29,423 nt of DNA from positions 1 through 29,423 of IMG/VR virus record IMGVR_UViG_3300006030_000022; one strand, given 5' to 3'. Below, one piece after another: positions 13,130 through 25,428 of the stretch. This DNA is from a virus. The stretch's first letter is position 1; every line of letters begins with the position of its first letter. The notes beneath the pieces were generated by a model. It was not told the origin of the DNA. It saw only the letters and a program-made list of their open reading frames with translations, and made no database searches. A program made the translations under genes and the position numbers.

Positions 13130-13173
13130 CAAAACTCGTCGAAAACTCGTCGAAAACTCGTTGAAAATTCGCT
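13130..13173. repeat. Four tandem 11-bp repeats with phased A-tracts
   Basis: Units of the form GAAAACTCGTC start at 13130, 13141, 13152 and 13163; the first begins with C and the fourth is degenerate. The AAAA tracts recur exactly every 11 bp, about one helical turn, and the last unit abuts the -35 box. They may bend the DNA, act like an UP element, or bind a regulator or replication initiator. Confidence 0.85.
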
Positions 13174-13201
13174 TGACAAAGTTTTTCGTATGCACTATAT
13201 T
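13173..13201 (+). promoter_or_regulatory. Strong early promoter
   Basis: TTGACA (13173-13178), a 17-base spacer and TATATT (13196-13201) form a near-consensus housekeeping promoter. It lies between a terminator and the first gene of the early operon, about 40 bases before the start at 13240. Confidence 0.9.
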
Positions 13202-14740: not shown

Positions 14741-15083
14741 CCAACAGCTGCCCGAGGCCCTCATCACCGCGCTGAGCGACTTCCGCGAACTGGAGAGCGA
14801 ATACAAGTCGCTCGGTGGGTTCATGGATGACAAGCGCGCCATCATCCGCGCCGAGGTTGCCAAGCTCGGTGGCAAGGCGAAGCTGGACGGCGTCGCGTCG
14901 GTCTCGATCGTGCCGGCGTCTGAGTCGCACAGCTACGACACCGACGCCATCGACGACATCGTGCTCGAGCTCTACGCTGACGGCACCAAGGACGGCATCG
15001 CGATCGCACAGAAGCTCATCGACGCGCGCAAGAAAACGACCCGCAAGGAATCGCTGCGCATTACGCTCGACAAGGGGTGGTGA
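14733..15083 (+). CDS. Hypothetical early protein
   Basis: A 116-residue protein with CGAAAGGA 16-9 bases before its ATG. It begins with a long helix (LPEALITALSDFRELESEYKS) likely to form a coiled coil, followed by a compact region with repeated Asp/Ala and a basic end (KKTTRKESLRITLDKGW). This layout resembles phage helper proteins of recombination nucleases, but I cannot name a family. The stop overlaps the next start (TGATG). Confidence 0.72.
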   Translation: MPDQQLPEALITALSDFRELESEYKSLGGFMDDKRAIIRAEVAKLGGKAKLDGVASVSIVPASESHSYDTDAIDDIVLELYADGTKDGIAIAQKLIDARKKTTRKESLRITLDKGW

Positions 15084-15883
15084 TGGCGTACATGATGACC
15101 AAAGAGACCGCGCGCCGGTGGTTCCGGCGCTTGGGTCCACAGTTCAAAGCGGACTGTTTGAATCTGGACCTACCTAATATTGACGTCGCGCGTACGCATG
15201 GCGTCAGCAAACAGACCATCATGCGCATCCGTCAGGCCATGGTTCCAAAGTACAAGCCACGTATGATTGACGTCAGTGAATCAAAGATTTGGGATGCGCT
15301 CCACGCGGACATCACGCAAGCCGAGGCAGCAGCTCGAGTAGGTGTGAATCAGACGACTATCAGCCGCTACCGTCGACTACTTGGACTGAAACCACGCGTT
15401 CCGAAACCAATACGCTACGATGACTCTACTATGGCGTTGCTGCGGTCGAGTCTGGAAGATGATCACGTCGCTCGTGCGCTTGGTGTTGAGGCGTCAACGG
15501 TCAGAAAACACCGCTATGCACTGCGACCACCACGACGCGCGTATACCCCACCTGACGAGCTGGAGAAGATGACGCCGGAGATTCTTGCAGCACGATCGAC
15601 GAGGGCGGCGGCTGCCATGCTGGGCATTTCGTACAGTGCAGCAGCCATCATCCGCGCGCGTCATAAGGGCAAAAAGAAAACGCTGCCAGATGCATTTTGC
15701 ACTATCACCGACTACGCAACACTCACGGTTCAGGAAATTGCCGCCATTGTCGGCATGCCAGAAGCAAACGTCCGCTACTACCTCCGCACGCGCGGGATTA
15801 CTGCCAAAGATGGAAAGACAGGTATCACCTATGCACAGCGCAAAGCTCGTCGCGCAAACCGTGCCGACACTGCCAAGCCTTGA
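15083..15883 (+). CDS. Protein of five tandem helix-turn-helix units
   Basis: A 266-residue basic protein. The ATG at 15083 follows AAGGGG and overlaps the previous stop. It contains five units that each read as a helix-turn-helix: residues about 31-51 (VARTHGVSKQTIMRIR), 77-101 (EAAARVGVNQTTISRYRRLL), 127-147 (VARALGVEASTVRKHRYAL), 172-193 (TRAAAAMLGISYSAAAIIRA) and 214-238 (VQEIAAIVGMPEANVRYYL). It ends in an Arg/Lys-rich tail. Repeated HTH units suggest recognition of a long or repeated DNA site. It could be a phage regulator, an origin-binding protein or a transposase-derived DNA-binding module; no catalytic domain is present. Confidence 0.82.
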   Translation: MAYMMTKETARRWFRRLGPQFKADCLNLDLPNIDVARTHGVSKQTIMRIRQAMVPKYKPRMIDVSESKIWDALHADITQAEAAARVGVNQTTISRYRRLLGLKPRVPKPIRYDDSTMALLRSSLEDDHVARALGVEASTVRKHRYALRPPRRAYTPPDELEKMTPEILAARSTRAAAAMLGISYSAAAIIRARHKGKKKTLPDAFCTITDYATLTVQEIAAIVGMPEANVRYYLRTRGITAKDGKTGITYAQRKARRANRADTAKP

Positions 15884-16493
15884 CCCTGAGCAATTCATCG
15901 CCTACGTGGCGCGCGTATCAAATCCGCAAAACCAAGAGTCACACGAGACCGCTCCCCGGCTGCTGCGGTTCCTTATCAAACACAAGCACTGGAGCCCGTT
16001 TGAGATGGCGCACGTCGTGATGGAGATTACCACCACGCGCGACATCGCCCGGCAGATGCTGCGCCATCGGTCCTTCAGTTTTCAGGAGTTCTCGCAACGG
16101 TACGCCGACCCGACCGACCTCGGCTTCGCGTTCCGTGCTGCCCGGTTGCAAGACAACCGCAACCGCCAGAACAGCATCGACACGGACGACCCGCATCTGG
16201 CGGCGTGGTGGAACCAAGCACAGAACAAAATCGCTGATGCTGTCGGCGAAGTCTACGCCGAAGCAATCGGGCGCGGCATTGCCAAAGAGCAAGCACGCGC
16301 CGTACTGCCAGAGGGGATGACCGTATCGAAGCTCTATATGGCCGGCAGCGTTCGCTCGTGGTTGCACTACTGCGAGCTGCGCATGGGGCACGGCACCCAG
16401 CGCGAACACCAGCAGGTGGCACGGTCGGCGTGGGACGAGCTCATCGACGCGTTCCCAGTTCTCGCCGATTGCTTGGAGAATCCGCGTGATTGA
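15831..16493 (+). CDS. thyX: Flavin-dependent thymidylate synthase
   Basis: A 220-residue ThyX, which makes dTMP from dUMP with methylene-tetrahydrofolate, NADPH and FAD. The signature RHRx7S is present (R78-H79-R80 and S88 in RHRSFSFQEFSQRY). Other family marks are HKHWSPFEM near residue 53 and the C-terminal REHQQVARSAW. The ATG at 15831 overlaps the end of the HTH-repeat gene by 53 bp; an alternative ATG at 15810 would add seven residues. Together with dCTP deaminase at 24020 it would raise thymidine supply during replication. Confidence 0.95.
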   Translation: MHSAKLVAQTVPTLPSLDPEQFIAYVARVSNPQNQESHETAPRLLRFLIKHKHWSPFEMAHVVMEITTTRDIARQMLRHRSFSFQEFSQRYADPTDLGFAFRAARLQDNRNRQNSIDTDDPHLAAWWNQAQNKIADAVGEVYAEAIGRGIAKEQARAVLPEGMTVSKLYMAGSVRSWLHYCELRMGHGTQREHQQVARSAWDELIDAFPVLADCLENPRD

Positions 16494-17115
16494 TTACGAA
16501 CCGCAGAACCTCCGCTACACGGATGACGTCATCGCCACGCTGCAAAGCGGGTGGCCGCTCGAAAAGATAGCACGTGCGCTGCAAGTCACCATCGGCGAAG
16601 CCGAGTGGCATATCGCCGAAGTCGATGGCATGCCGCATCGGGGCGAACCTATCTGGCCAGAACCAAAGGCGACCGTTCCGAAGTATCCGACCGACCCAGA
16701 ATGGTACGCAGCCCGGACAAAAGAAGACGCAGCGAAACTGTGGGGCGTCAATGCAATCACCGCGCTGAAGTACGCCGGTGCGATCGGCATGAAGTTCAAA
16801 CGGTCACCGTCCAAGCGCGGGCGCGGTCCCAAAGACTACCCGACGGACCCTGATTGGTACCAGACGCGAACCGCTCCGGAAATCGCGGCTGAACTTGGCC
16901 TCACCACTGAAGGCGCGCGCATCCTCGCCGCTCGTTACGGAGGCCCGCTGCGGATTTACAATTACAAGTGCGACTATCCGACCGACCCCGAATGGTACAA
17001 AACACGGACCTACTGGGAGGCTGCCGCTGAGCTGGGCGCATCGATGCAAACCGTCCGCAATTACGCGTGGCGCCACAAATACGAATTCAAACCGAGTCAC
17101 GAAGTGGTAGAATAA
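16486..17115 (+). CDS. Protein of tandem YPTDPxWY / helix-turn-helix repeats
   Basis: A 209-residue protein starting at a GTG (16486) with GGAG at 16475-16478, overlapping the thyX stop. It has three clear repeats of about 46-51 residues, each opening with YPTDPEWYxxRT (residues 67, 118 and 164) and continuing with an HTH-like segment (EIAAELGLTTEGARILAARYG in the second). A fourth, divergent HTH lies at residues 20-48 (LEKIARALQVTIGEAEWHIAE). I do not know a family with this repeat. It may bind DNA repeats or act as a phage regulator, like the five-HTH protein on the other side of thyX. Confidence 0.78.
   Translation: MIDYEPQNLRYTDDVIATLQSGWPLEKIARALQVTIGEAEWHIAEVDGMPHRGEPIWPEPKATVPKYPTDPEWYAARTKEDAAKLWGVNAITALKYAGAIGMKFKRSPSKRGRGPKDYPTDPDWYQTRTAPEIAAELGLTTEGARILAARYGGPLRIYNYKCDYPTDPEWYKTRTYWEAAAELGASMQTVRNYAWRHKYEFKPSHEVVE
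17105..17113 (+). promoter_or_regulatory. Possible extended -10 promoter
   Basis: TGGTAGAAT at 17105-17113 fits an extended -10 and repeats the element before SSB. TTCAAA lies 16 bases upstream as a weak -35. It overlaps the end of the 16486 gene and faces a short non-coding stretch with a terminator. Confidence 0.4.
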
Positions 17116-17119
17116 ACAC

Positions 17120-17174
17120 GCCGAAGAGGAAAACGGCAGCAGCGCTCCGAGCAATCGGGGCGCTGTTGTTTTGT
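17120..17174 (+). ncRNA. Possible very short RNA
   Basis: Transcription from the extended -10 at 17105-17113 would give about 55 nt ending at the terminator. The 5' part can form a small hairpin, GCCG (17120-17123) with CGGC (17134-17137), presenting the purine-rich loop AAGAGGAAAA. No reading frame is present. It may equally be only the trailer of the upstream gene. Confidence 0.3.
17140..17174 (+). terminator. Intrinsic terminator
   Basis: CAGCGCTCCGA (17140-17150) pairs with TCGGGGCGCTG (17155-17165), one G-T pair, GCAA loop, followed by TTGTTTTGTT. It ends the first early operon just before the promoter at 17178. Confidence 0.85.
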
Positions 17175-17177
17175 TGA

Positions 17178-17207
17178 TTGACAAAAACAGTAATACACGT
17201 GTATGAT
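17178..17207 (+). promoter_or_regulatory. Second early promoter
   Basis: TTGACA (17178-17183), an 18-base spacer and TATGAT (17202-17207) precede the 17238 gene by about 30 bases. It follows directly on a terminator and probably drives the primase-helicase operon. Confidence 0.82.
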
Positions 17208-20687: not shown

Positions 20688-20714
20688 GTCTGCACTAACG
20701 CATTAAATAGGGGT

Positions 20715-20766
20715 CTTTTTCCAAACTTTCTTATATCCGCGCGTATAAGGAAAAGTTTAGAAAAAG
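20715..20766. terminator. Long hairpin after the primase-helicase gene
   Basis: CTTTTT (20715-20720) pairs with AAAAAG (20761-20766), AAACTTT (20723-20729) with AAAGTTT (20752-20758), and CTTATA (20730-20735) with TATAAG (20744-20749) around a GC-rich loop. With A- and T-runs on both sides it could terminate on either strand, though nothing is transcribed from the other side. It ends the replication operon. Confidence 0.72.
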
Positions 20767-20778
20767 GGGGGTATTTAC

Positions 20779-20787
20779 TGCGATAAT
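20779..20787 (+). promoter_or_regulatory. Possible extended -10 promoter for the nuclease/lysis operon
   Basis: TGCGATAAT (20779-20787) fits an extended -10, right after the terminator hairpin and about 19 bases before the 20806 start. No good -35 is visible. Confidence 0.4.
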
Positions 20788-20805
20788 GCAAAAAGGGGGA
20801 TGACG

Positions 20806-24036: not shown

Positions 24037-24619
24037 CCGCGAGATTACGCGTCTCGCTGCCGCCGGGATGATTACGCCGTTCGCCGAGGGTATGGACCGA
24101 CCCGGCGTCATCTCGTACGGGGTGACGTCGTTTGGTTATGACATGCGCGTGGCGGATGAGTGGGTCGAGACCGTGCTCCACAGTGACGACATCGTTGACC
24201 CAAAATATCCGCACCCGCTGACGATTCGCGATGAGAGTTTGTATTCCGATTGGCACATGAACTCTCGCGGATGGTATTCGCGCCGTCTCGAGCATTATCT
24301 GCTCAAACCCGGCGGCTTCGTCCTCTGCCGCTCCGTCGAAACCTTCGCCATTCCCGAGGACGTCGTCGGGATCGTCGTTGGGAAGTCCACCTACGCGCGC
24401 TGTGGTCTCATCGTGAACTGCACGCCGATGGAGCCGGGCTGGTCGGGTGAACTGACCATCGAGCTGCACAACGCGTCGCAGCACGCCATCAAGGTCTACG
24501 CGAACGAGGGAATCGCGCAAGTGATGTTCTTCCGTGGCGAGCGACCAGCCGTGACGTACGCCGACAAGCACGGCAAGTATCAGGGGCAGACGGGTGTGAC
24601 GCTGCCGAGGGTGAAGTGA
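24020..24619 (+). CDS. dcd: dCTP deaminase
   Basis: A 199-residue dCTP deaminase, which converts dCTP to dUTP and so feeds thymidylate synthesis by ThyX. Family motifs are GVTSFGYDMRV near residue 34 and the long core GKSTYARCGLIVNCTPMEPG followed by WSGELTIELHN, where the Glu of GELTIE is the expected catalytic base. GGGGGA lies just before tandem ATGs at 24020 and 24023; I use the first. A deaminase needs a dUTPase for the next step, and none is evident here, so a bifunctional enzyme or a host dUTPase is possible. The stop overlaps the methyltransferase start. Confidence 0.93.
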   Translation: MMILNDREITRLAAAGMITPFAEGMDRPGVISYGVTSFGYDMRVADEWVETVLHSDDIVDPKYPHPLTIRDESLYSDWHMNSRGWYSRRLEHYLLKPGGFVLCRSVETFAIPEDVVGIVVGKSTYARCGLIVNCTPMEPGWSGELTIELHNASQHAIKVYANEGIAQVMFFRGERPAVTYADKHGKYQGQTGVTLPRVK

Positions 24620-25428
24620 TGCGATACGAATTGCACCTCGGCGATTGCCGCGACGTCATGGCGACGCTACCCGCTGAATCGGTTGACGCCATCGTCTGCG
24701 ATCCTCCGTACGGGCTGTCGTTCATGGGCAAAGGGTGGGACCACGGCGTTCCCGGTGTTGACTTTTGGGTAGAGGCGTTGCGCGTGTTGAAACCGGGCGG
24801 ACACCTGATTGCGTTCGGTGGCACACGGACGTATCACCGGTTGGCGGTGGCGATCGAGGACGCTGGCTTCGAGGTGCGCGACTGTTTGATGTATCTCTAT
24901 GGCTCGGGATTCCCGAAATCGCTGGACGTATCGAAGGCAATGGATAAACAGGCGGGAGCGGAGCGAAAAAAACGATGGAAAGCTGTTACGCCACACGGAA
25001 TGACCGGAGCGTTAGAACATCGTCCGTGGATTGAACGTGCGCAACGTGACGGCGGTATTTTTGTAGACGGCGAGGAGCCATCCACCGACCTCGCAAAGCA
25101 GTGGCAGGGCTGGGGCACCGCGCTCAAGCCAGCCGTTGAGCCCGCCATCCTCGCGCGCAAGCCGCTGACGGGGACGGTGGCAGACAACGTGGCGCAGTGG
25201 GGCACGGGCGCGCTGAACATCGACGGGTGCAGGGTGGGAACGTCAAGACCAGAAACGTCGTTGCACGCATTTACCGCATTACGAAGAATGGAAAATCGTA
25301 CAGACCTACAAACACCAACCGCAGATAATCGCACGGATGTTGGCCGCTGGCCCGCGAACCTCATCCTCGACGAAGACGCAGCGGCGGCGCTGGATGCGCA
25401 GAGCGGCGGCGCGTCTCGATTTTTCTAA
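24619..25428 (+). CDS. DNA methyltransferase, N-terminal part (interrupted by TAA)
   Basis: A 269-residue fragment of a DNA adenine/N4-cytosine methyltransferase. The ATG at 24619 overlaps the dcd stop. Residues 26-33 (IVCDPPYG) hold the catalytic DPPY motif, followed by VLKPGGHLIAFGG and the target-recognition region. The chain stops at TAA (25426-25428) right after GGASRFF. Homologues continue here with FFYxAKASxxER, and the same frame does go on as TAKASRSEREAGLEGM, so a single Tyr-to-stop change (TAC to TAA) seems to have cut the gene. The SAM-binding motif lies beyond the stop, so this half alone should be inactive. Confidence 0.85.
   Translation: MRYELHLGDCRDVMATLPAESVDAIVCDPPYGLSFMGKGWDHGVPGVDFWVEALRVLKPGGHLIAFGGTRTYHRLAVAIEDAGFEVRDCLMYLYGSGFPKSLDVSKAMDKQAGAERKKRWKAVTPHGMTGALEHRPWIERAQRDGGIFVDGEEPSTDLAKQWQGWGTALKPAVEPAILARKPLTGTVADNVAQWGTGALNIDGCRVGTSRPETSLHAFTALRRMENRTDLQTPTADNRTDVGRWPANLILDEDAAAALDAQSGGASRFF

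Follow-up and report, generated by a model that had tools for sequence, protein, structure and literature searches.

A predicted tandem-HTH protein family of uncultured phages with an invariant head module and a variable number of xPxDPxWYxxRT modules

The locus and the anatomy of the repeats

The DNA analysed here (the window) is a complete virus record of 29,423 bases, which may itself be a genome fragment. The gene under study encodes a 209 amino acid protein and lies between tail genes and primase, a position that is kept in related genomes. The genes and modules in question are as follows.

15083..15883, + strand: five-HTH protein P0002, a remote relative with module types A and B in common with the target protein
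15834..16493, + strand: thyX (Thy1, 6.8e-41), sitting between the two multi-HTH genes
16486..17115, + strand: target gene, GTG start, 209 aa, overlapping the end of thyX
16510..16644, + strand: N-terminal module A (LRYTDDVIATL...), residues ~9–53, HTH-like, acidic, the best-conserved part of the family
16684..16809, + strand: module B1 (YPTDPEWYAART...), HTH helices 71–75, 79–86 and 90–99
16837..16962, + strand: module B2 (YPTDPDWYQTRT...), HTH helices 122–126, 130–137 and 141–151
16975..17100, + strand: module B3 (YPTDPEWYKTRT...), HTH helices 168–172, 176–183 and 187–196
17135..17170, + strand: terminator-like hairpin after the target gene, with the same layout in L004

The motif YPTDP[E/D]WYxxRT is present in three copies, starting at residues 67, 118 and 164 (spacing 51 and 46), with nine of its twelve positions identical across all three. 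The top 12-residue self-match in the protein has 10 identities, against a maximum of 8 in 1000 shuffles (8 was seen once and 7 in 19), which confirms the three repeats with a YPTDPEWYxxRT opening reported in the initial annotation of this DNA. Third codon positions differ between the copies. The count of three nevertheless fell short as an inventory of modules, since a fourth, HTH-like module at the N-terminus had been overlooked.

The initial annotation also placed the target gene next to thyX and opposite the five-HTH gene. All three genes are on the + strand, with thyX in the middle. Only the window and L004 have thyX immediately before the target gene; adjacency so limited is not a family trait and the link is incidental. 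The suggested pairing of the two multi-HTH proteins fared better, in that they are indeed related. A B-module profile matches P0002 at E 6.4e-12, a module A profile matches its third HTH (8.9e-4), and P0002 homologues ending in one full B module are found in L042 (two), in L036 (two) and as a truncated ORF in L004. In the window, none of P0002's modules has the xPxDPxWY opening. The window and 13 other loci (L014, L017–L020, L027–L031, L035, L037 and L040) have a five-HTH-like ORF upstream of the target gene; in L004 it is a fragment, in L036 it lies on the downstream side, and none was detected at the remaining family loci.

A third gene of this type, encoding A-like and then B modules, is present on the minus strand of L050 (L050:633-1319) and L051 (L051:903-1634), the copy in L051 matching the module A profile at 2.8e-7. 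It is found near a DNA methyltransferase gene in both, lying between dCTP deaminase and methyltransferase in L051, and was not seen at the corresponding place in the window. The window's own DNA methyltransferase (24616-25428) is 94% identical over 106 aa to that of L030 (L030:4382-4699), whereas other genes shared with L030 are far less alike (the target 35%, dCTP deaminase 73%), suggesting recent exchange. The gap after the primase gene holds an inverted repeat (20691-20790) with 50-nt arms that are 72% complementary.

Predicted fold and known families

An AlphaFold2 model of the window protein, made with an alignment of 24 members (pLDDT 83.0, pTM 0.36), has twelve helices forming four trihelical HTH sets. 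Module A contributes helices 13–19, 25–32 and 36–46, and the B-module motif is predicted to form helix 1 and to run into helix 2. For a second member, L017, the model has five trihelical sets (pLDDT 78.4, pTM 0.29), so that a three-helix HTH fold is predicted in both proteins. At these pTM values the relative placement of the modules is not predicted and a rigid array finds no support in the models. Taken together, the trihelical sets suggest that the repeat is no new fold but a divergent HTH whose first helix is unusual; along with the Pfam HTH matches described below, the models bear out the earlier view of the repeats as HTH-like.

A fold search of the PDB returned no match at E ≤0.001 (the best was 0.23) and no match reached Z ≥5 in VIA-align. 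A search of BFVD structures, by contrast with the PDB at the same threshold, gave 16 matches at E ≤0.001, including a Vibrio phage D5 protein (1.8e-4) and a phage endonuclease (2.9e-5). PDB chain 8vd6 ('CAP REPEAT') was considered as possible kin and rejected: the overall value is 1.4e-16, yet each repeat scores only ~12 bits, over the HTH part, and we read this as a shared HTH rather than kinship.

The window protein falls below every Pfam cut-off (HTH_23 scores 22.7 bits vs 24.6), but relatives exceed some of the Pfam HTH cut-offs, such as Sigma70_r4_2 in L004 (37.7 vs 25.7), and all 24 aligned members match PHROG 323, 'transcriptional regulator, D5-like', at E ≤0.001 (8.7e-6 for the window). 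The idea that the repeat belongs to no known family can thus be set aside. The matches to Pfam HTH_23, Sigma70_r4 and HTH_17 cover helices 2 and 3 of the B modules and leave the xPxDPxWYxxRT opening mostly outside. Although Sigma70_r4 is matched by 22 of the 24 members, the window protein does not combine the regions 2 and 4 by which we would recognise a sigma factor: it matches the region 4 HTH only, and no region 2 family was among the matches listed for the 24 members (25 of 31 families).

Among the closest known systems is the D5 protein of phage T5, reported to be 255 residues long, mildly toxic when expressed and recognised via its HTH by a retron (PMC13405049). By annotation, D5 binds DNA and is needed for both DNA replication and late transcription, and its gene adjoins helicase and primase genes; the target gene has a neighbourhood of the same kind, both being found among replication genes. 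Like the target family, D5 comes from a phage and carries a series of HTH motifs, its HTH-type Pfam matches lying at ~32–68, 71–100, 145–184 and 204–230, of which only the last is above a cut-off. Unlike the family, it has neither the xPxDPxWY first helix nor the LRYTD module. D5 fits PHROG 323 over positions 3–270 of 319 with 243 bits, whereas the window protein, tested for a full-length colinear match, aligns over 108–194 only, with 26.5 bits, and hhalign of D5 against the family yields a probability of 14.7 over 79 columns, taking in HTH pieces only.

Spread, module number and module exchange

As a single query against viral contigs the window protein found no relative, probably because it is a divergent member. 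The family was opened instead with a DNA pattern of the motif, which identified three contigs whose alignment then served as query. Of the 67 stretches matched in this way, 36 are IMG/VR loci that encode relatives, answering the question of conservation beyond the window genome. Scanning with the N-terminal signature gave 38 stretches and added two new contigs (L080 and L082), both with the same architecture. In cultured phages, tblastn with the window and L031 proteins gave no match at E ≤1; genome contigs scanned for a host with the family (21 stretches) and with TerL (146 stretches) contained no relative, and all phage matches of TerL are below 60% identity. In the literature, the family motif strings occur in none of 5.39 million papers, and among the papers listed for tandem-HTH phage proteins none dealt with the family.

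The head of the protein is its most constant part, LRYTDxVIATL being invariant in all 24 aligned members. Third codon positions vary freely in the LRYTD stretch, showing that the signal lies in the protein and ruling out constraint at the DNA level. The number of B modules, by comparison, varies. Counting repeats among relatives, as had been proposed with the initial annotation, gave three modules in 8, four in 19 and six in 3 of 30 near-complete proteins, the window included, with module starts spaced 50, 46 and 46 in 18 of the 19 four-module proteins. The count omitted L025, L035, L037, L038, L039 and L040 (cut by contig ends), L033 (no in-frame N module) and L003 and L005 (the same genes as L007 and L006), and took in both L028 and L029, which encode the same protein, plus other near-identical pairs. 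L032 (L032:5989-6735) is missing part of the N-terminal module. In L033 a short ORF separate from the B modules encodes the N module, so that the gene looks broken in that record. An apparent gene duplication in contig 3300046820_001817 (L009 and L025) was dropped, as similar stretches are found at both contig ends, which fits the assembly of a variant overlap.

Pairwise dN/dS values for seven close members (21 pairs) are 0.05 for the N-terminal part and 0.07, 0.15, 0.44 and 0.14 for B1 to B4, indicating a working gene under purifying selection in which B3 is the freest. B3 exists in two forms, between which pairwise dN/dS ranges from 0.51 to 1.23, a suggestive value only. Positive selection on the recognition helices is unsupported, with dN/dS for the turn plus helix 3 (0.21) close to that for helices 1 and 2 (0.18).

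In one case modules have also been exchanged. In a comparison that drew on nine members, the nucleotide identity of L031 to L018 is 0.92 in the N part and 0.91 in B1 and then 0.65, 0.76 and 0.87, whilst its identity to L017 is 0.82 and 0.74 and then 0.91, 0.96 and 0.97. L031 is thus a mosaic, with the switch between B1 and B2.

Putative role and neighbouring DNA elements

On balance, the protein is probably a DNA-binding phage regulator of the tandem-HTH type and belongs to a new subfamily of D5-like proteins, with B modules that grip DNA and a module A that docks a partner. We infer DNA binding, docking and a regulatory role along the following lines. The three C-terminal B modules (three to six in relatives) would grip successive DNA stretches, with a separate recognition helix in every module and an almost constant pitch of 46 residues. 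The invariant, acidic module A would bind no DNA and might instead dock a conserved partner, for example RNA polymerase or a replication protein. The B array would then recognise a single phage site and recruit the partner to it, and the partner, once in place, could control early or replication genes.

The pattern of variation within B modules gives this reading mixed support. Across 71 non-redundant modules (193 instances reduced at ≤80% identity), the least variable positions are T12, P2, Y8 and R11 and the most variable columns of helix 3 are 24, 25 and 29, at 3.67, 3.69 and 3.70 bits. Exposed column 14 reaches 3.61 bits, and helix-3 entropy so little above that of other exposed positions counts against DNA contact by the B modules as we propose it. 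Likewise, in 10 proteins the outward positions of helix 3 match at 0.31 between same-numbered modules across phages and at 0.10 between different modules, but at other exposed positions the values are 0.35 and 0.14, an equal gap which may reflect common descent and not DNA contact.

The distinctness of the modules bears on whether their binding is specific at all. It is conceivable, if rather unlikely, that the protein serves in replication or genome organisation and, as may be the case for T5 D5, is not very sequence-specific, its modules adding affinity and not an address. The replication and late transcription role annotated for D5, the similar neighbourhood of the target gene and the basic character of B modules all fit this. 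Against it, same-numbered modules stay distinct between phages and modules differ in evolutionary rate, neither of which non-specific binding would need. At the opposite extreme, each module might read one subsite, with modules added, lost or exchanged whole to change the target and module A recruiting a constant partner, which would make the array a prokaryotic counterpart, in logic, of zinc-finger and TALE arrays. This we regard as doubtful, and just as doubtful is the notion, part of the same reading, of a toolkit of two module types that three or more genes of this phage group have in common.

Charge was computed on 15 chosen members. Module A is acidic in all of them (net charge −3 to −7) and 49 of the 59 B modules are positive. 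The window copy is atypical, with B1 at +5, B2 and B3 at −1 and the entire protein at −1, and these values, unlike those of most relatives, count against strong DNA binding by the window copy itself. Binding of protein or RNA in place of DNA would suit its near-neutral B2 and B3 and the acidic module A, but sits badly with the basic B modules of the family and with library matches that are most commonly to DNA-binding HTH types; we think it a slim prospect.

A candidate site for a regulator of the kind we favour would be the tandem element at 13131-13171, which consists of 3.7 copies of an 11-bp unit, AAAACTCGTCG, and has the highest TRF score in the window (68). It is located directly upstream of an early-operon promoter-like site, TTGACA-17-TATATT (at 13173; region 13131-13201). 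Activators of the PhoB/OmpR type typically have direct repeats of 11 bp ahead of the −35 box. Looking within 900 bp after gene g12319, we found two units, the first 30–31 bp before the −35 box, in 18 of the 25 sources holding the region (17 loci and the window), compared with 0.01 pairs per window under a Markov null. The −35 box is mostly TTGACA or TTGACT, with TTGCAT, by eye, in L016, L021, L032 and L039. The element is in another place in L022, is degenerate in L023, L024 and L033, and was not found in L014, L036 and L038, which encode the protein. A scan of the collection found 18 stretches, of which three (L060, L063 and L065) belong to other phages and have the element close to TTGACA-like boxes; no match to the target family was seen in their records (0 of 4 records searched, though as fragments these are weak evidence). 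That the target protein is an autoregulatory activator reading this element would account for its recurrence in register with the −35 box, but speaking against it are phages with the element and no detected protein, phages with the protein and no element, and near-identical element units facing recognition helices that differ between modules. We therefore rate it as quite improbable and do not assign the element to the target protein; the phages that have it but no detected copy of the protein point instead to a common host or some other factor.

Phage HNH and homing endonucleases have tandem-HTH parts like the family's repeats, as seen in the BFVD endonuclease match and in the HNH endonuclease family phrog_8446, which matches the HTH part of 20 of the 24 members, and a GIY-YIG gene lies near the target gene in the window; yet the window protein has no nuclease domain (HNH, GIY-YIG or LAGLIDADG) in Pfam at E ≤1, and the purifying selection on the gene and its constant location among related genomes make it scarcely credible that it is a homing endonuclease remnant that kept just its DNA-binding repeats.

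Tandem-HTH phage regulators of the D5 type are already known. The novel features are the xPxDPxWYxxRT module, an invariant head, a module number that varies and module exchange, and together these define a conserved, unnamed multi-HTH protein family from uncultured phages with a recognisable signature. Should the modules be read one by one, the family would offer a compact bacterial-virus system in which to study how a DNA address is built and changed by module exchange; should they not, the protein would be an ordinary phage regulator and the gain would be the family profile and its place.

The DNA after the target gene (17135-17207) has a promoter-like layout of its own. After the terminator-like hairpin comes TTGACA-18-TATGAT, and a perfect palindrome of 12 bp, ATACACGTGTAT (17193-17204), overlaps it; we do not attribute this palindrome to the target protein. 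The layout in L004 is the same, with the palindrome AATATACGTATATT. The gene that comes after this region has a weak RHH match.
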